64,000 nt of DNA, taken from assembly GCA_017515325.1 (NCBI GenBank), contig JAFWGA010000013.1:62001-126000 (forward strand). The letters run 5' to 3'. The DNA is from Blautia sp. (GTDB lineage: Bacteria; Bacillota; Clostridia; Lachnospirales; Lachnospiraceae). Position 1 is the first letter of the stretch. Each line of letters starts with the position of its first letter. This document shows positions 13,596 to 24,894 of the stretch, one piece after another. Below the pieces are notes generated by a model, which saw only the letters and a list, made by a program, of their open reading frames with translations, was not told the origin of the DNA and did no database searches. The translations under genes and the position numbers were made by a program.

Positions 13596-13651
13596 CCGCG
13601 CCGGATTGACGCCGCGTAAGCAGCGTGTTTCCGCAGAATATTCGTGCGCAT
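13596..13651 (+). repeat. Intergenic repeat family R1, copy 2
   Basis: GCGCCGGATTGAC, inner hairpin GCCGC-GTAA-GCAGC (GNRA loop), bulge GTGTTTCCGCA, then GAATATTCGTGCGC. It sits in the 5' leader of the peptide ABC operon, about 12 nt before its Shine-Dalgarno sequence. Confidence 0.75.
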
Positions 13652-13675
13652 GCGAAAAGAAAAGGAGTGGAAGAA

Positions 13676-14587
13676 GTGGGTAAATATGTCATCAAGCGAG
13701 TGATCCTGGCGATTATTACGATTTTTGCCATCAGCGCGATCACATTCTTTGCCATGAATGCCATCCCGGGAGGTCCTTTCAGCGGAGAGAAGGCTTTGAG
13801 TCCTGAGGTTGAGAAGGTGTTGATGGAGAGATTCAACCTGGATAAGCCGGTTCCACAGCAGTATGTGATTTATCTGGGAAGACTGCTGCATGGAGATTTT
13901 GGCGTATCTCTGAAAACAGGCCGGGATATTGCTGCTACCGTTTTTGAATCCTTTAAGGTCTCTGCCCGGCTGGGAGGGCTGGCTGCGCTGACAGCTATTA
14001 TCTGCGGCATTGTTCTGGGCAGCGTTGCGGCATTGAATCGGAATCACTGGCCTGACCGTGTGATCGTTTTCCTCTCTACTCTGGCTACAGCTGTTCCCAG
14101 CTTTGTCCTGGCGACCCTTCTGCTGCTGATCTTTTGTATCAGGCTGAAATGGTTTCCGGTTTTTTCTACAGGAGAGAGGAGTTATGTCCTGCCTGTGATC
14201 GCTCTGGCCATGTATCCCATGGCTTATATTACCCGCCTGACCAAGACCAGCATGCTGGACGCCCTGGGGCAGGATTATGTGCGTACAGCAAAGGCAAAGG
14301 GCGTATCCAGAGTCCTGGTTATTTTCAAGCATGCCCTGAGGAATGCCCTGATTCCTGTCATCACCTATGTGGGACCCATGCTGGCTTACATCCTGACCGG
14401 TTCCCTCGTCGTGGAGAATATCTTCACCTTCGGTGGACTGGGGGCTAAATTTGTCTCGGGCATTACCACCAGGGACTATCCTATGATCATGGCGACGACG
14501 ATTTTCCTGGCGACTTTGATGGTCATCATGAATCTGATCAGCGATCTGGTATACAAGCTGGTCGATCCAAGGATTAACTTTGACTGA
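13676..14587 (+). CDS. Oligo/dipeptide ABC transporter permease B
   Basis: A 303-residue DppB/OppB-type permease, six TM segments. The N-terminal helix (VIKRVILAIITIFAISAITF) is followed by the large external loop with NLDKPVPQQYVIYLGRLLHG and the C-terminal EAA-like loop (ALGQDYVRTAKAKGVSRVLV). Start GTG 13676 has AAGGAG 8 nt upstream; the frame continues upstream through the R1 repeat, which is not coding. First gene of the operon B-C-D-F-A; it forms the channel with the following permease. Confidence 0.92.
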   Translation: MGKYVIKRVILAIITIFAISAITFFAMNAIPGGPFSGEKALSPEVEKVLMERFNLDKPVPQQYVIYLGRLLHGDFGVSLKTGRDIAATVFESFKVSARLGGLAALTAIICGIVLGSVAALNRNHWPDRVIVFLSTLATAVPSFVLATLLLLIFCIRLKWFPVFSTGERSYVLPVIALAMYPMAYITRLTKTSMLDALGQDYVRTAKAKGVSRVLVIFKHALRNALIPVITYVGPMLAYILTGSLVVENIFTFGGLGAKFVSGITTRDYPMIMATTIFLATLMVIMNLISDLVYKLVDPRINFD

Positions 14588-14632
14588 TTAACCCCTTTTG
14601 CTGAATTTCGGGAATAGATGAGGAGAAGATTT

Positions 14633-15700
14633 ATGGCAAAGGAAGAATTTAAGAAAAATCCGCTGAGCGTCCAGATCGATCTTGCCAAATTCGAGCTGGC
14701 CAGCGAGGAGGAGAAGGCCCAGCAGGAGGTGATGAGTGAGTCCACCACCTTCTTCAGGGACGGGATGCGAAAGCTGAGAAAGAACCCACTGGCCATGGCC
14801 AGCATCATTGTCCTGATCCTGATTGTGACATTGGCTGTGGCCGGCCCTATGGTTATCCCCTACAAATATTCCGAGATGATCTCGGTAGATGGGCGCAGAG
14901 ATAAGACCGCCAAAAACCTGGCTCCTTTTACCTGGTCAAAAAATGAGCAGAAGGCCATAGAACAGGGTGAAAAGCTCTTTCCCCATATTCTGGGGACAGA
15001 TGAGCAATGCCGGGATTATCTGGTGAGAGTGCTGTACGGAACAAGAGTATCGCTTTTTGTCGGTTTTTTTGCCGCTATCCTGGTTCTGATTATCGGCCTT
15101 TTGTATGGCAGTATCTCAGGCTATGTGGGAGGCAGGGTGGATCTGATCATGATGCGTATTGTCGATGTGATCTATTCGCTGCCTGATACCCTTATGGTAA
15201 TTCTGCTGTCTGTCGTCCTGAAGCAGACGCTGCAGCCCTTGATTGAGGGAACAGCCCTGGCTAAGCTGGGTGTGAATATGATCTCCTTGTTTGTCGTCTT
15301 TGGTCTTCTGTACTGGGTGGGAATGGCCAGGCTCATCCGCGGACAGATTCTGTCCATTAAAGAAAATGAGTATGTGCTGGCGGCGCGCGCCATCGGCGCT
15401 AAACCGGGCTGGATCATCCGCAAGCATATTATCCCCAACTGCCTGAGCGTAATCATCATTTCGACCGCGCTGCAGATCCCCTCTGCGATATTTACGGAGA
15501 GCTTCCTGAGCTTTGTGGGTCTGGGGGTACAGTCTCCCATGCCGTCACTGGGATCCCTGGCCAATGCAGCCAGGGAAGGGATGCAGAGCTATCCCCATAA
15601 GCTGGTCATACCTGCCGTCGTGATCTGTCTGTTGGTTCTGTCCTTCAACCTTCTGGGAGATGGACTGAGGGATGCCTTTGACCCCAAGCTAAGGAGGTAA
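14633..15700 (+). CDS. Oligo/dipeptide ABC transporter permease C
   Basis: A 355-residue DppC/OppC-type permease. A charged cytoplasmic N-terminus of about 55 residues precedes the first TM helix, then an external segment with HILGTDEQCRDYLVRVLYGT (the family LGTDxxGRD motif) and the EAA loop ENEYVLAARAIGAKPGWIIR. ATG 14633 follows GAGGAG by about 7 nt; an upstream ATG at 14618 lacks a good site. The gap to the first permease is 45 bp. Unusually long N-terminal tail for the family. Confidence 0.92.
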   Translation: MAKEEFKKNPLSVQIDLAKFELASEEEKAQQEVMSESTTFFRDGMRKLRKNPLAMASIIVLILIVTLAVAGPMVIPYKYSEMISVDGRRDKTAKNLAPFTWSKNEQKAIEQGEKLFPHILGTDEQCRDYLVRVLYGTRVSLFVGFFAAILVLIIGLLYGSISGYVGGRVDLIMMRIVDVIYSLPDTLMVILLSVVLKQTLQPLIEGTALAKLGVNMISLFVVFGLLYWVGMARLIRGQILSIKENEYVLAARAIGAKPGWIIRKHIIPNCLSVIIISTALQIPSAIFTESFLSFVGLGVQSPMPSLGSLANAAREGMQSYPHKLVIPAVVICLLVLSFNLLGDGLRDAFDPKLRR

Positions 15701-15703
15701 AAT

Positions 15704-16708
15704 ATGAGCGAGAATTGTGAATATATGCTGGAAGTAAAAAATCTCCATACCTCCTTTTTCACGGATTCCGGAGAGGTGAAAGCGGTAAACGGCGTGTCCT
15801 TTGACCTGAAGCCGGGGGAGATCATGGGGATTGTAGGAGAATCCGGGTCCGGCAAAAGCGTTACTGCCTATTCCGTCATGCAGATCCTGGCGGATACCGG
15901 CAGGATCGTGGAAGGCAGTGTCTTCTATAAGGGAGAGGATATTACCCGGTGGGACAAGCGGAGGATGCAGAAATTCCGTGGCAAATGCTGCAGTATCATC
16001 TTCCAGGATCCCATGACCAGCCTGAATCCTGTTTTTACCATTGGCAACCAGCTGATGGAAGCGATCCGCCTTCATACGGATAAGAACCGGTCCCAGGCAA
16101 AAGCCAGAGCGATAGAAATGCTGGAGCTGGTGGGGGTCAATGAGCCGGCCAGACGTCTCAAGCAGTATCCCTATGAGATGTCGGGGGGCATGCGGCAGCG
16201 AGTGATGATTGCCATGGCTCTGGCCTGTGAACCGGACATTCTGATTGCGGATGAGCCCACGACAGCGCTTGATGTTACCATCCAGGCTCAGATCCTGGAG
16301 CTGATGCAGGAGCTTCAGAAAAAGATGGGCATGGCTATCATCATGGTGACCCATGACCTTGGCGTGATTGCGGATATGTGTGACAAGATCATCGTCATGT
16401 ACGGAGGAAGTATCTGCGAGAGGGGAACCGCGGATGATATTTTTTATGATCCCCGGCATGAGTACACCAAGGGTCTTCTCCGTTCTATCCCCAGCGCGAC
16501 AAACAGCAAGGAGCGTCTTGTCCCGATCAGCGGGAGCCCCATCAATCTTTTGAATATGCCTAAGGGATGCGCCTTCTGCAGTCGGTGCGACCATGCCATG
16601 AAGATCTGTATCGAGGAGAAACCCCAGGAACTGACGCTCACCCCGACCCATCAGGCATCCTGCTGGATGAATGTGAAAAAATTACAGGAAGGGCAGGTGA
16701 GGCCATGA
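15704..16708 (+). CDS. Oligo/dipeptide ABC transporter ATPase D
   Basis: A 334-residue DppD/OppD-type ATPase that powers peptide import. Walker A GESGSGKS (about 45-52), signature MSGGMRQRV, Walker [14 protein letters not shown], switch His in VTHDLG, and the C-terminal cysteine-rich signature with CAFCSRC, as in oligopeptide ATPases. AAGGAGG precedes the ATG, only 3 nt after the permease stop, and the gene end overlaps the next start by 4 nt (ATGA). Tight coupling with its partner supports a heterodimeric motor. Confidence 0.94.
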
Positions 16709-17673
16709 ATACGGAATATCTGGTAGAGGTAAAGGAACTGAAGCAGTATTTCCCGATCCATACGGGATTTCGCAAGGTCACGAATCTGAAGGCGGTGGAC
16801 GGTGTTTCCTTCTCCATCCGTCCCGGAGAGACTCTAGGACTGGTAGGAGAATCCGGCTGCGGCAAGACAACGGTAGGGAGGACTCTCCTTCGTCTGTATC
16901 AGCCTACAGGCGGCCAGGTTTTGTTTGAGGGAGAAGAGGTGACGGATAAGAATATCCTGGAGCTGCGGAAAAAAATGCAGATGGTATTCCAGGATCCCTA
17001 CTCTTCCCTTGATCCCAGGATGACAGTAGAGGATATCATCGGGGAACCCATGGATGTTCATCGACTGTATAAAAATCGGGCAGAACGGCGGGAAAAGATC
17101 CTCAGACTGATGGAGCTGGTCGGGCTTAATGCCGAGCACGCTACCCGCTATGCCCATGAGTTTTCCGGTGGTCAGCGCCAGAGGATCGGGATCGCCAGAG
17201 CTCTGGCGGTGAACCCGAAGTTCATTGTCTGCGATGAGCCTGTCAGTGCTCTGGATGTGTCTATCCAGGCTCAGGTTGTCAATATGTTTGAGGATCTGCA
17301 GAAAAAGCTGGGAGTGGCTTACCTGTTTATTGCCCATGATTTATTGATTGTCCGTCATATTTCTGATAGAATAGCCGTGATGTATCTGGGCAGGATCGTG
17401 GAGATCGGGGATGCGGATGAGGTATATGAACATCCAAAGCACCCTTATACGATTTCGCTGCTGTCCGCAGTACCGATCCCGGATCCCAGGTTGACCCGCC
17501 AGAGGCAAAGGATCGTACTGGAGGGGGATGTCCCCAGCCCCATGCATCTGCCCAGCGGCTGCGCCTTCCGTACCCGCTGCCGTTATGCTACAGAGAAATG
17601 TGCCCAGGAGCGTCCCGTCCTGGCTGATACAGGGAACGGACACTTTGCTGCCTGCTGGCATCTGCAGTCATGA
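16705..17673 (+). CDS. Oligo/dipeptide ABC transporter ATPase F
   Basis: A 322-residue DppF/OppF-type ATPase. Walker [11 protein letters not shown]-loop [12 protein letters not shown], signature [15 protein letters not shown], Walker [15 protein letters not shown], switch His in IAHDL and the C-terminal CAFRTRC cysteine region. ATG 16705 overlaps the previous stop (ATGA) with AGGTGAGG just upstream; the longer frame starting at 16567 lies inside the upstream gene and is spurious. It should pair with the D subunit. The binding-protein gene follows after 121 bp. Confidence 0.94.
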
Positions 17674-17794
17674 TCTTAAGGTTTCATTGATTCTTATACA
17701 GCAAGGGGAAACCCTTGCTGTTGGGAATAGATTACCGGCTGCCCTTCAGACAGCCGAGACCGTTACCAGTTACTATTTTAAGGAGGTACTGAAA

Positions 17795-19504
17795 ATGAGG
17801 AAAAAGATTCTTGCAGTCGTTCTTGCGGCGGCTACAGCACTGGCTCCGGCGGCTGGCGTTTTTGCCAAGTCCTCGGAAGCCGCACCGGACTGGGAAGCCT
17901 ATGATGAGCTGATCTCTGAGATCAAAACCACCACAGACTTTAAAGAGCGTGAAGCTCTCATGCATGAGGCGGAGGATATGTTGATGGATACCGGCGCTAT
18001 CGTGCCGATCTACTTCTACAACGATGTCTATATGCAGAAGGAAGCTGTTACCGGGATCTACAGTAATGCCTACGGTTTTAAATATTTCATGTTTGCCGAG
18101 AACGGCGACAGTGATGTCCTGCGCCTGAACCTGGCCTCTGAGCCTGATAAGCTTGACCCGGCCCTTAACTCCTCCGTTGACGGTGCCTGCCTTGCTGTTA
18201 CTGCTTTCTCCGGTCTGTTTGCCTATGACGAGGAAAGCAATGTCGTTCCGGAACTGGCAGACTCCTATGAGGTGAGCGAGGATGGCCTGACCTATACCTT
18301 TACTCTGCTTCCCGATCTGAAATGGAGTGACGGGTCTGCCCTCACGGCCAATGATTTTGTTTATTCCTGGAACCGTGCAGCTGCTCCCGAGACCGGCGCA
18401 GACTATTTCTACATGTTCGATGCCATCGCCAAGAATGAGGATGGAACCTTGAAGGTAGAGGCCAGCGAGGATGGCATGACCCTTACCGTCACTTTGGCGG
18501 CTCCCTGTGCTTACTTCCTGGATCTGTGCGCTTTCCCGGCCTACTATCCGGTACCTCAGGCCTCTGTGGAAGGAGCTGAGGGTTATCAGGATAATCCTGG
18601 CGCCTGGGCTCTGGAGGCTGGCTTTGTCTCCAACGGCGCTTATACTCTGACCTCCTGGAAACACAATGAGAGCATGGTCTATACCAAGAACCCCAACTGG
18701 CATCGTGCAGACGAAGTCAAGATCGAGACCCTTGAGTTCATGCTCAGCAATGATGACACCGCTATTTATGCTGCCTACAATGCAGACGACCTGGACTTCA
18801 TCGATACCGTTCCCACCGACGAGATCCAGAACCTTCTTGACAATCCGGAATTCCATATCGTTGACAACCTTGGCACTTATTATGTCAGCTTCAATGTCAA
18901 CAGCCCGCTCTTTGAAGGCAAGACGGTTGAGCAGGCAGCTGATATGAGAAAGGCACTCAGTCTTCTGATCGACAGAGACTATATCTGTGAGAATATCGGC
19001 CAGACAGGCCAGCAGCCCGCCTCCACCTTTATCCCGGCAGGAATGGCTGACGGCCAGGGCGGCGAGTTCCGTGTCAATGACGAGGACTATACTTATCCTG
19101 TCACCTACACCTACAACGACGAGGAAATCGGCGGTTACTTTGATCCTACCTATGATGCTTATGACAGCAACCTGGAGGAGGCGATTGCCCTTCTGGAAGA
19201 GGCCGGTTTCGAGTTTACCGAGGATGGCGTCCTTTCTGACGAGACTCCGCTTTCCATGAATTATATTACCAATGAGACTTCCGGCCATGTCGCCATCGCG
19301 GAAGCTCTGCAGCAGGATTTCGCCGCGGTCGGCATCGACATGACGATCGAGACCACAGAGTGGAATGTCTTCCTGAATGAAAGAAAGGCCGGAAACTTTG
19401 ACATTGCCCGCAATGGCTGGCTTGCAGATTTCAATGACCCGATCAATATGCTGGAGATGTGGACGACCGATTCCGGCAATAATGATGTCCAGTTTGGCAG
19501 ATAA
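17795..19504 (+). CDS. Peptide ABC transporter substrate-binding protein, apparently circularly permuted
   Basis: A 569-residue OppA/DppA-family binding protein, secreted through an N-terminal signal (MRKKILAVVLAAATALAPAA). The order of parts is abnormal. Residues about 33-101 (AYDELISEIKTTTDFKEREA, GAIVPIYFYNDVYMQ, YGFKYFMF) correspond to the segment that normally ends these proteins. At residue about 106 the usual mature N-terminus begins (DVLRLNLASEPDKLDPALN), and the protein stops after WTTDSGNNDVQFGR, exactly where the tail would normally follow. This reads as a circular permutation behind the signal peptide. There is no lipobox Cys. ATG 17795 follows AAGGAGG; the frame from 17528 overlaps the ATPase gene and is not used. 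Identity of the family is firm; the permutation is my reading. Confidence 0.88.
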   Translation: MRKKILAVVLAAATALAPAAGVFAKSSEAAPDWEAYDELISEIKTTTDFKEREALMHEAEDMLMDTGAIVPIYFYNDVYMQKEAVTGIYSNAYGFKYFMFAENGDSDVLRLNLASEPDKLDPALNSSVDGACLAVTAFSGLFAYDEESNVVPELADSYEVSEDGLTYTFTLLPDLKWSDGSALTANDFVYSWNRAAAPETGADYFYMFDAIAKNEDGTLKVEASEDGMTLTVTLAAPCAYFLDLCAFPAYYPVPQASVEGAEGYQDNPGAWALEAGFVSNGAYTLTSWKHNESMVYTKNPNWHRADEVKIETLEFMLSNDDTAIYAAYNADDLDFIDTVPTDEIQNLLDNPEFHIVDNLGTYYVSFNVNSPLFEGKTVEQAADMRKALSLLIDRDYICENIGQTGQQPASTFIPAGMADGQGGEFRVNDEDYTYPVTYTYNDEEIGGYFDPTYDAYDSNLEEAIALLEEAGFEFTEDGVLSDETPLSMNYITNETSGHVAIAEALQQDFAAVGIDMTIETTEWNVFLNERKAGNFDIARNGWLADFNDPINMLEMWTTDSGNNDVQFGR

Positions 19505-19670: not shown

Positions 19671-19711
19671 AAAGCCCGGAATGTATCGACAGATATGTTC
19701 CGGGCTTTTTT
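19671..19711 (+). terminator. Intrinsic terminator after the peptide transporter operon
   Basis: AAAGCCCGGAA pairs with TTCCGGGCTTTTTT around a short loop; a strong U-tailed hairpin 167 bp after the last gene. Confidence 0.85.
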
Positions 19712-19725
19712 CTATGGCAGGGGCG

Positions 19726-19842
19726 GGCAGGGGCGCTGAAAGGAAGATGTCACCTGAAGGTGACCAGCGCCCCGCCGTGGGGTAGAGAGTCGGCTGTGCC
19801 TCCCTCTACCCTATTGGCAGGGGTGCCGGAAGGAAGAGGCCG
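19726..19842 (+). repeat. Structured intergenic repeat family R2, copy A (about 1.3 units)
   Basis: Unit of about 90 bp. GGCAGGGGCGCTG pairs with CAGCGCCCCGCC across an asymmetric AAAGGAAGAT bulge and an inner hairpin GTCACC-TGAA-GGTGAC. A second hairpin (GGGGTAGAG / CTCTACCC) follows, and then the start of a second unit at 19816. Confidence 0.75.
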
Positions 19843-20004: not shown

Positions 20005-21585
20005 ATGAAACTTAGCATGTGGATCCTGGCTAACAGGCTTGGTTCTTTTGAACCGAGGATTTCTATCCATTCCCCTTCAAGGCGGTGCCTTTTGAGCGCC
20101 AGACGTACCAGTGTTCCGGACTGCGTCTGGGTACATGAAGAAAAGGATGGTGTTTGCATCAGCTGCGATGAGGATTGGATTATTCTTCCCGGGCTTGATC
20201 TGGCTACCGGTTTTGAATTGGTGCAGGGGATCTTTGACTTTTTTGACGACTGGGAAGAAGAGCTTTTAGACGGTATGTCAAAATGTGATTATCAAAGAAT
20301 CGTCGAGCTATGCTGGCAGGTTTTTGAAAATCCGGTTTTTCTATTGAACGGAAACAGGGAGCTTTTGGGGATCTCGGATCATTATCCCTATGAGGAGATG
20401 GACAGTGAATGGGTTTATCTGTGCAAAAACAGGCGCTCATCTCCGGAATCTGTCAAAAGATTCCTGCAGAGCAGTTCATACAGTCAATATATCCATGAGG
20501 GAATCAATCATTTTAGCCCACATAGTCTGCTGAAATTCGGTGGAATGATGTACAGTATGTTTCATCAGGGTTTTGAGTGCGGCCGTCTTCAACTGATGGA
20601 GAAGGATCGGCTCCTGAACGAAGGAGATGTTCAGCTTCTGGAGATGGTTGCGCATAAGCTGAAGCACTGCCTGCTTTCCTCTGCCGGGTTGGGGCATGAG
20701 CCGGGCAATATTTATATGCTGGCGAATCTGATCAGCCATACTCCTGTCAGCCGCTCTGCGCTCTCCCGGCTTTTGTCTTACCGGAACTGGGATATCCATG
20801 ATACCTATCGGATCTGGATTCTACACCCAAGGCAGGAATCCAGGATATCCGCTGCAGCAGCTCTCTCCAGGCTGTTTTTTCTGATCAATTATCCCTTTCC
20901 TCACACAGTGGCGGTGGAAGAGGAGGACAGAATCCTGGTAGTCTGTAACGGAAAAAGTGCGATTGACCAGTCCTTTCCCGATTACCTGAGTTCTTATCAG
21001 GTTCTGGATTATATATACGCCGCCTGCTCGTTGCCTGTCCGGGGGATCAACCATCTTGGCTTTTTGTATACTCAGGCGGAGTATGCTCTGGAAAACGGGA
21101 TAGCCTGGAATCCTGACCGGAACATTTTATCGTTTGAGGACTATGCTGTCGATTTTCTGATAGAATCCCCTTCGCCGGAGGAAAGACTGTATGCCGTGCA
21201 TCCGGGCCTGATCTCTGTTCTGGAGGCTGTTCAAAAGGAACAGTATCCGGTATATGACACTCTTGCCGCATATATGGCTAATGACTGTGCCATATCAGAG
21301 ACGGCGCATGAGCTTGGGATTCACAGGAATACATTGATCTACCGCATTTCCAGAATCACGGACTACTGCTCACGGGACTTGGCGGAATATCATACCAGGG
21401 AATATATGAAGTATTCTCTGCGTGTTCTGGAACTGTACCGGGAAAGGCAAAGACTGCCGGATATGACGGCTGTTCTGGAAAGAATTATGTCGGATCCTTA
21501 TCTGCTGGAGGGGAAAAATGAAGATAAGCATGTGGATGCTGGCCAATCGTCTGGAGATGCTGTCTCCGGAGCTTCATTTGAGTGA
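20005..21585 (+). CDS. PucR/CdaR-type helix-turn-helix regulator, paralog 1
   Basis: A 526-residue regulator. The C-terminal PucR-type DNA-binding domain is clear: YMANDCAISETAHELGIHRN then TLIYRISRI (about 415-450). The N-terminal ~90 residues (KLSMWILANRLGSF, VPDCVWVHEEKDG, FDFFDDWEEELLDG) are shared with the next gene and look like a sensor domain; the middle is GGDEF-like in length but without recognisable motifs. AAAGGA lies upstream of the ATG. It overlaps the following paralog by 68 nt, so they are co-transcribed. Position after the peptide operon suggests, but does not prove, control of it or of purine genes. Confidence 0.8.
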   Translation: MKLSMWILANRLGSFEPRISIHSPSRRCLLSARRTSVPDCVWVHEEKDGVCISCDEDWIILPGLDLATGFELVQGIFDFFDDWEEELLDGMSKCDYQRIVELCWQVFENPVFLLNGNRELLGISDHYPYEEMDSEWVYLCKNRRSSPESVKRFLQSSSYSQYIHEGINHFSPHSLLKFGGMMYSMFHQGFECGRLQLMEKDRLLNEGDVQLLEMVAHKLKHCLLSSAGLGHEPGNIYMLANLISHTPVSRSALSRLLSYRNWDIHDTYRIWILHPRQESRISAAAALSRLFFLINYPFPHTVAVEEEDRILVVCNGKSAIDQSFPDYLSSYQVLDYIYAACSLPVRGINHLGFLYTQAEYALENGIAWNPDRNILSFEDYAVDFLIESPSPEERLYAVHPGLISVLEAVQKEQYPVYDTLAAYMANDCAISETAHELGIHRNTLIYRISRITDYCSRDLAEYHTREYMKYSLRVLELYRERQRLPDMTAVLERIMSDPYLLEGKNEDKHVDAGQSSGDAVSGASFE

Positions 21586-22942
21586 AAACACACCTCGAGT
21601 GCTCAAAAGCGCTCGGCTGGCATACGCTACAGACTGTGTTTATGTCTATGCCGAGGGAAATGCTGTTGTGGTGAGGGCAGAGGAGGATTATTTCGTTATC
21701 CGGGAGCTTTCCCTGAAGGATGTTTATGCTACCGTGCAGTCGGTGTTTGACAGCTTTGAAAATTGGTGTGCTCAGCTGGAGGAACTGGCTCAGGAAGGAA
21801 ATTTCCAGAAAATGACAGAAATGGGAAGCGTCCTTCTGAATAATCCCTTGGCTTTTCTGGATCAAGCCTATAGAGTGCTTGGCATAAGTAAGAGTTCTTC
21901 CGAAGAAGACTTAGGAGACGAATGGAATTATATGAAGAAATATGGGTTCGCCTCGGTAGACGGCCCCTTTACGAGAGATGCTCAGCTGGTGAATGGACGA
22001 TCTTTTTTTACCCTTTCGGGAGCGAGGTTTTATCACGGTGTATCGGTCCCTGTTTCTTTTCAGAATGAGGAAAAAGGGAATCTTTGTATCATTGTCAAAG
22101 ATCGCATTCTTAACTGTGGGGATTTTCAGATTCTGGATATCCTTTCCCGGGCTTTTGGGAGAATGCTCTTTAGTGGAACAATTCAGAAAGACTATTCCTT
22201 CAGCTCCTCCGTATTTGAGGATCTTCTTTGTGGGGAAAGGATGGATACGGAGCTTCTGAAGACACAGCTGGAGCTTCGGAACTGGGGGGAAGAAGATGTC
22301 TATCAGCTATACCTGCTGGAATTCTTTTCCTCCTCGGCCAGGCGGTGGCAGCTGCGGCTGGTTTTTCGTACGATATGCGGTTGTTTAAAGGAGGCACAGG
22401 CTGTTATCCTTGGTTCCCAGATCGCTGTCCTCTATAACTGCAGCAGAGGAAAGCTGGATCATCCGGGAAGAAAACTGCGGTCCATCGCGGAACAAAATCA
22501 TATGACAGGCTCCTGTTCCCTTTCTCTGGAAGGCATTTGGGTCTGCCCTTATCTGATGTCCCAGGCTGCTTATGTATTGAATCATATGGGACAGGAGGAA
22601 CAGCCGAGATTTTTCGCTCCCTTTGTTGATTGCGCTCTGGATTATGTTCTCGAGTCTCAGAATCTTGAGGAATGTGTTTACGCTGTCCATCCTAAGATCC
22701 GTTCCCTGTATCAGATGGAAGAAAAGGAACGGTCTGTCATGCTGGATACATTGAGAGCTTATCTGAGAAATGACACTTCGCTTGTCAATACGGCAAGGGA
22801 GCTTTTTATCCATCGCAATACATTGGTATACCGGATGGCAAAGATCAACGAGTACCTGCACGAATCTCTCGAGGACAGAGGAACACTGGCTTACCTGAGG
22901 CTTTCAATCCGAGTTATGGATTTATATAAAAAAAGAGTATGA
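21518..22942 (+). CDS. PucR/CdaR-type helix-turn-helix regulator, paralog 2
   Basis: A 474-residue paralog of the preceding regulator. It begins MKISMWMLANRLEML, matching the neighbour's MKLSMWILANRL, and ends with the same helix-turn-helix (TSLVNTARELFIHRNTLVYR). GGAGGGG lies 5 nt before ATG 21518, inside the upstream gene. In the shared N-terminal region DCVYVYAEGNAVVV aligns with DCVWVHEEKDGVCI. The tandem arrangement suggests a duplicated sensor pair that may heterodimerise (inference). Targets unknown. Confidence 0.8.
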   Translation: MKISMWMLANRLEMLSPELHLSENTPRVLKSARLAYATDCVYVYAEGNAVVVRAEEDYFVIRELSLKDVYATVQSVFDSFENWCAQLEELAQEGNFQKMTEMGSVLLNNPLAFLDQAYRVLGISKSSSEEDLGDEWNYMKKYGFASVDGPFTRDAQLVNGRSFFTLSGARFYHGVSVPVSFQNEEKGNLCIIVKDRILNCGDFQILDILSRAFGRMLFSGTIQKDYSFSSSVFEDLLCGERMDTELLKTQLELRNWGEEDVYQLYLLEFFSSSARRWQLRLVFRTICGCLKEAQAVILGSQIAVLYNCSRGKLDHPGRKLRSIAEQNHMTGSCSLSLEGIWVCPYLMSQAAYVLNHMGQEEQPRFFAPFVDCALDYVLESQNLEECVYAVHPKIRSLYQMEEKERSVMLDTLRAYLRNDTSLVNTARELFIHRNTLVYRMAKINEYLHESLEDRGTLAYLRLSIRVMDLYKKRV

Positions 22943-24718: not shown

Positions 24719-24769
24719 GGCAGGGGTGCCGAAAGGAAGATGTCACCTGACGGTAACCGGTACCCTGCC
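24719..24769 (+). repeat. Structured intergenic repeat family R2, copy B
   Basis: GGCAGGGGTGCCG / CGGTACCCTGCC outer stem, AAAGGAAGAT bulge, inner stem GTCACC-TGAC-GGTAAC. Compared with copy A, two pairs of the upper outer stem change on both sides (T-A for C-G, C-G for T-A). Confidence 0.75.
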
Positions 24770-24894
24770 GTTCATCTTATGGCAGAAGGATTTGCCTGCA
24801 AGATAAGTCTTGCGAAGAAAGAGAGACTATGTTAGGCTATATTCATGTAAAATATGACTGAAATCAACAGCTTAGATAGATGAGGAGGAAGAAA

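Follow-up and report, generated by a model that had tools for sequence, protein, structure and literature searches.

At the end of an oppBCDF operon in a 64,000-nucleotide stretch of DNA from Blautia sp. (the window), we identified a gene whose product, P0001, is in our estimate with a probability of about 0.9 an oligopeptide-binding protein (SBP_bac_5, cluster C) with a natural circular permutation, acting as receptor for the adjacent OppBCDF importer. The original prediction, made from the DNA letters, had given the correct coordinates, frame and residue numbers: P0001 has 569 amino acids and is encoded on the + strand at window positions 17795-19504, with a ribosome-binding site (AAGGAGG, 17780..17786) upstream of its ATG. 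From the translation, the chain starts with a signal peptide that lacks cysteine (residues 1-24, 17795..17866; cleavage site judged by eye) and a new mature N-terminus made of the linker KSSEAAPD (residues 25-32, 17867..17890). These are followed by the segment that has moved from the C-terminal end of the OppA/DppE fold (residues 33-101, 17891..18097; placed by alignment to solved homologues and by profile), the junction from the old C-terminus to the old N-terminus (residues 102-107, 18098..18115; alignment and junction profile) and the remainder of the fold, its N-terminal and middle parts (residues 108-569, 18116..19501; Pfam and alignments). The usual N-terminal stretch, LRLNLASEP, begins at residue 109, and the chain ends at GNNDVQFGR, the last seven residues with the stop codon (NDVQFGR, 19481..19504; translation) forming the new C-terminus at the cut loop.

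Comparison with solved homologues showed that P0001 lacks the canonical N-to-C segment order and that its pieces are rotated. In a phmmer alignment to DppE (8ay0), query residues 104-432 corresponded to chain residues 19-341, 487-563 to 369-444, and 34-101 to 451-518; the stretch from the chain end therefore sits at the front of the query. The prediction had read residues 33-101 as an OppA-type C-terminal end, had placed the usual N-terminus only at residue ~106 and had the chain stopping where the tail normally continues, and all three points agree with this alignment. Bacillus subtilis OppA (8are) gave the same rotated order (query 35-99 to chain 456-520, i-E 4.4e-5), and profile A1, built from 80 permuted proteins with P0001 among them, recovered it on 8are, 8ay0 and 1b05. 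On 1b05 the cut of P0001 and its like (type A) lies near residues 441-445. The NCBIfam OppA model matched the normal-order relative L119 in one stretch and P0001 in two. The Pfam SBP_bac_5 model (PF00496) matched residues 149-563 (E 3.5e-81, 273.6 bits vs a cut-off of 32.4), and since this 'middle' model still matches in one piece, Pfam alone would not flag P0001. Among the best 60 of 103 and the best 60 of 114 solved homologues found by sequence, all belonged to the SBP_bac_5 kind, with peptides, nickel, heme or similar ligands bound. A chance origin of the rotated order is excluded by the E-values and by the dozens of relatives with the same order, and we regard it as close to certain, at the level of sequence, that P0001 is a genuine circular permutation of an OppA/DppE-type protein.

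The relatives were retrieved with a P0001-based scan of genome contigs, which returned 385 pattern matches, 373 of them relatives; we retained the best 80 loci and classified frames for these together with 32 loci from the source genome and 40 relatives. As the prediction had suggested looking for, the same order was found in relatives: 85 frames were permuted (a count that includes the P0001 locus, L001, and several contigs present twice), 13 were normal and 16 had no detected C segment. The permuted L033 has 85-86 % identity to P0001 and the same breakpoint. Permuted order was also present in the named isolates Proteiniclasticum aestuarii SCR006, Eisenbergiella porci, Porcincola intestinalis and Lachnospiraceae bacterium COE1, in Murimonas intestini, whose record is flagged for possible contamination, and, as type A, in the single-contig genomes G225 and G310. 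Among the frames compared, type A frames terminate in SGNNDxQ[FY]G[RK], which is briefly extended in a few; odd tails occurred in only 2/107 frames, which are two retrieved copies of one TAG-interrupted gene. The permuted copy of G310 (L129, L148; L148:6016-7848) has one in-frame TAG, which may reflect a pseudogene, a sequencing error or read-through. The source genome itself gave only two further matches, both distant (25-26 % identity) and on other contigs.

These relatives bear directly on the main alternative named in the prediction, namely that two tandem normal genes were wrongly joined in assembly or binning. The source genome is a 68-contig draft that is 87.7 % complete, and tandem copies do exist among the relatives (L111, L075), which would both suit such an error. 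Against it, identical order and breakpoint recur in single-contig genomes and in 85 frames drawn from numerous independent assemblies and isolates; this agreement excludes an assembly join, and we reject an artefact for the family and give it next to no weight for P0001.

The genes of the operon lie in close succession on the + strand: an oppB-like permease gene (13625..14587; the true start is probably slightly downstream of the GTG), an oppC-like permease gene (14618..15700), an oppD-like ATPase gene (15704..16708) and an oppF-like ATPase gene (16705..17673, with the start MNTEYLVEV chosen here in place of the longer listed ORF). They were assigned from their ORFs and by synteny, with homologues of the first found upstream of oppC in relatives. 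The order oppB-C-D-F followed by the binding protein, all on one strand, was seen at 72/80 loci, the other 8 being cut by contig ends; G225 (L147) has the binding protein gene upstream of BCDF instead. The expectation that P0001 is the sole binding protein of its operon was borne out by eye, in that no second one was seen among the listed ORFs near it. Using our own Nei-Gojobori script, we obtained a dN of 0.093 and a dS of 1.76 for P0001 versus L033 (dN/dS about 0.05), and dN of 0.001-0.003 with dS of 0.038-0.097 for three close pairs. Selection on the permuted gene is strongly purifying.

This evidence was set against the possibility that P0001 is a decaying or non-functional rearranged gene and that the operon relies on another binding protein. 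The in-frame TAG in the G310 copy fits decay, but the low dN/dS, the 120 invariant columns of the A1 alignment across 80 proteins, the conserved position at the end of oppBCDF and the lack of a second binding protein in the window operon all oppose it, and we consider decay very improbable. A working permutein had been expected from the outset; the conserved operon and purifying selection support this indirectly, and on these grounds the permuted protein very probably works, its likely function being that of a peptide receptor. One of the invariant A1 positions, D521, aligns with OppA residue 419, which we take to be the aspartate that binds the peptide amino group. In the arrangement that we propose, a short linker would join the old C- and N-termini, which are neighbours in lobe 1, and the new termini would come from the opening of a surface loop in lobe 2. 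Because the old termini are adjacent and the break is confined to a surface loop of lobe 2, the two-lobed clamshell would be expected to form as usual and to close on peptides, with the Asp419 equivalent conserved, while the exit of the N-terminus would shift from lobe 1 to lobe 2.

To survey permuted order more widely, we used profile A2, which covers the junction of the fused termini, such that a permuted protein gives one match across the junction and a normal one two half matches, and a broader junction profile, A3. At least 27/397 genomes of the family sample, the source genome included, had an A2 full-span match, 26 at E 1.9e-43 or better and one (G365) more weakly at 3.2e-24; inspection of 11 of these 27 gave type A in 11/11, one of them interrupted. 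The class sample yielded 9 full-span A2 matches in 391 genomes at E 1e-18 and A3 matches in 10/391 genomes at E 1e-20, and the phylum sample 2/398 A2 matches at E 1e-17 (G000 and G851, the latter type B). In the class sample G000, G529 and G761 were type A. Two other breakpoints were found. In type B proteins (G759, G502, G794) the match begins at about N-profile position 262-278 and finishes at about 251-265. In type C proteins (G769, G471, G525, G577) it begins at 375 and finishes at 361 or, by profile, at 324-327, the chain in the latter case continuing to about the same loop. Both types occur in single-contig genomes (type B in G759, type C in G471). The original prediction was right about permutation at the type A cut and had foreseen neither the other breakpoints nor repeated changes of order.

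Placed by eye on 1b05, the type B cut falls at about OppA residues 280-287 and the type C cut at about 353-358, compared with 441-445 for type A. We take OppA domain III (residues 271-486) to be lobe 2. In YejA, lobe 2 comprises residues 287-539, and other peptide-binding proteins are described as having both termini close together by the domain I sheet (PMC10924461). Given these lobe limits and the adjacency of the termini, all three cut loops seem to belong to lobe 2, which would relocate the N-terminus from lobe 1 to that lobe, and the old ends would be joinable by a short linker. Three loops out of three is only suggestive of a bias towards lobe 2, because by our estimate this lobe makes up about half of the stretch where the profiles could show a cut.

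For phylogenetic analysis, all segments were first put into one common order. In the resulting 73-row tree type B fell into three separate positions and type C into two, and a single clade was rejected for type B (AU p about 1e-125) and for type C (AU p 2.6e-5). L166 is the least certain type B placement, since the long branches of L019 and L166 meet in this tree. Holding type A together without the normal-order L119 was not significantly worse in the earlier tree (AU p 0.071). In a 74-row tree with normal-order relatives added and L166 left out, type A and normal order were mixed within one supported clade (100/99) with an unresolved backbone, and a single type A clade was rejected (AU p 8.5e-4; N segment alone, p 4.4e-5). 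The normal-order L195 was sister to the type A proteins L130, L198 and L199 (100/100). We had first read L119 as an unambiguous reversal within a single type A clade; this was weakened once normal-order relatives were added, as type A is not one clade. An AAPDW-like motif in the L119 loop (compare the P0001 linker, KSSEAAPD) was rejected as a relic, because many normal-order relatives carry the same motif within the cut loop. Rejection of a single clade for types A, B and C implies that permutation either recurred or was reversed; the changes in type A order may represent repeated gain or reversal, both of which fit the trees. The normal-order L189 and L190 lie directly after oppBCDF, as the permuted gene does. 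Relatives with another order at the same locus had been named beforehand as a point against permutation; these two in part provide it, yet the permutation stands, and their position indicates that order changed within the family and that the operon can exist without the rotation.

A plausible origin, and the one proposed, is that a tandem duplication was fused in frame and then lost its outer parts. Two arrangements fit it without proving it: L111 (L111:5530-9450) has two type A permuted units in one 1307-aa frame, separated by a low-complexity linker and 92 % identical over 531 aligned residues, and L075 has a partial copy directly upstream of an intact gene. The L111 record is labelled Chloroflexi, and its sequence groups with Bacillota type A proteins. 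Separately, L123-L127 and L152 carry an insert of about 25 residues at the exact loop that is cut in type A. The L152 insert was first considered a leftover of a type A tandem fusion; we rejected this, as L123-L127, its sisters of normal order, have the insert too.

A lipoprotein anchor is usual for such binding proteins in Gram-positive bacteria. The P0001 signal region has no cysteine and hence no lipoprotein anchor signature. In the 80-residue stretch ahead of the C segment, 50 of the 80 type A loci had a lipobox pattern, 14 a cysteine and no lipobox, and 16 no cysteine; 14 of these 16 have a signal region without cysteine, and in L064 and L087 the open frame falls short of a signal peptide. 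All seven type B and C proteins examined have a signal peptide and a lipoprotein-type cysteine. The signal peptides of normal-order binding proteins from the source genus (L008-L012) likewise have no cysteine. In L080 (L080:3919-7707) and L006, judged by length to be the same contig, an acidic, E/A-rich linker of several hundred residues separates the lipoprotein signal from the permuted unit, and the chain ends in a short acidic tail. Long acidic stretches occur in L064 and L087 as well.

Why the order changed can be read in two ways. The permutation may be real but neutral, any break-tolerant loop serving and tandem duplications continually yielding permutants of unchanged function. Consistent with this, the cut loop varies in length among normal-order relatives (including the insert in L123-L127), normal and permuted copies occupy the same oppBCDF locus, and some permuted proteins, P0001 included, have no lipobox. 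The mapping of all three cut loops to lobe 2 speaks against neutrality, with three loops too few to reject chance, as does the lipobox on the moved N-terminus in 50/80 type A and the 7 type B and C examples. We judge the chances of this neutral reading to be about even. Alternatively, shifting the anchor from lobe 1 to lobe 2 could improve the docking or closing of a membrane-tethered receptor, and the permutation would then be adaptive. The repeated origin or reversal of each type (the AU tests above) and the restriction of cuts to lobe 2 point this way, and a tether benefit was raised by the authors who described a permuted sugar-binding protein, TpMglB-2 (PMC4990184); P0001 and at least 14/80 type A relatives, whose signal region lacks cysteine, speak against it. 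We hold an adaptive role only tentatively. The fuller proposal, that permutation in Bacillota peptide receptors is recurrent, perhaps reversible, affects at least three lobe 2 loops, arises via L111-like fusions and was selected because tether position alters docking or closing, seems to us somewhat unlikely in its entirety.

P0001 resembles OppA and DppE (1b05, 8are, 8ay0) in sequence family, OppBCDF operon and the conserved Asp419 equivalent, but differs in that the last ~70 residues of the fold come first and the new termini lie near OppA 441-445. To our knowledge, natural circular permutations are known in few protein families, and our searches of open-licence PubMed Central papers turned up no report of a permuted cluster C or peptide-binding protein; the one natural precedent we found for a permuted binding protein was TpMglB-2 (Tp0684). 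This cluster B protein binds sugars and has 'Type Ic / Cluster Bc' relatives in which the permutation is conserved, among them many from Gram-positive gut bacteria (PMC4990184). P0001, too, is an ABC-transporter binding protein with a naturally permuted order that is conserved among relatives, and it has the permuted chain of Cluster Bc but not the Type I / cluster B sugar-binding fold. TpMglB-2 further differs in its breakpoint and in a moved part with 13 % identity to its counterpart (PMC4990184), whereas the P0001 family has a cluster C peptide-binding fold, a clearly similar moved part, several breakpoints, and a type of operon locus that carries either normal or permuted order. Permuted or cut binding proteins are also used in engineered sensors, but these and other engineered permuted proteins are laboratory-made and of other folds. 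The living relatives of P0001 include normal order, three permuted orders and a two-unit fusion in one family. Since normal and type A forms share the same kind of operon locus, the route and possible reversal can be studied directly, and the family lends itself to asking, in natural proteins, whether it matters where an importer receptor is tethered.

In the surroundings of the operon, no RNA family matched in the window at the gathering threshold, with one weak, implausible match downstream. Promoter patterns showed no excess (7 vs 6.1 in shuffles) and terminator patterns little (9 vs 5.5). A long hairpin followed by T residues lies downstream of the P0001 gene at 19671-19710 and is perhaps the operon terminator; it was found by folding and was absent from the terminator pattern scan. 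A 53-base repeat, 85 % identical between its copies at 19726-19778 and 24719-24771, lies outside the main listed genes. Just after the operon are two adjacent, similar-looking genes (20005-21585 and 21518-22942) that look like, and may encode, regulators of the PucR/CdaR type.
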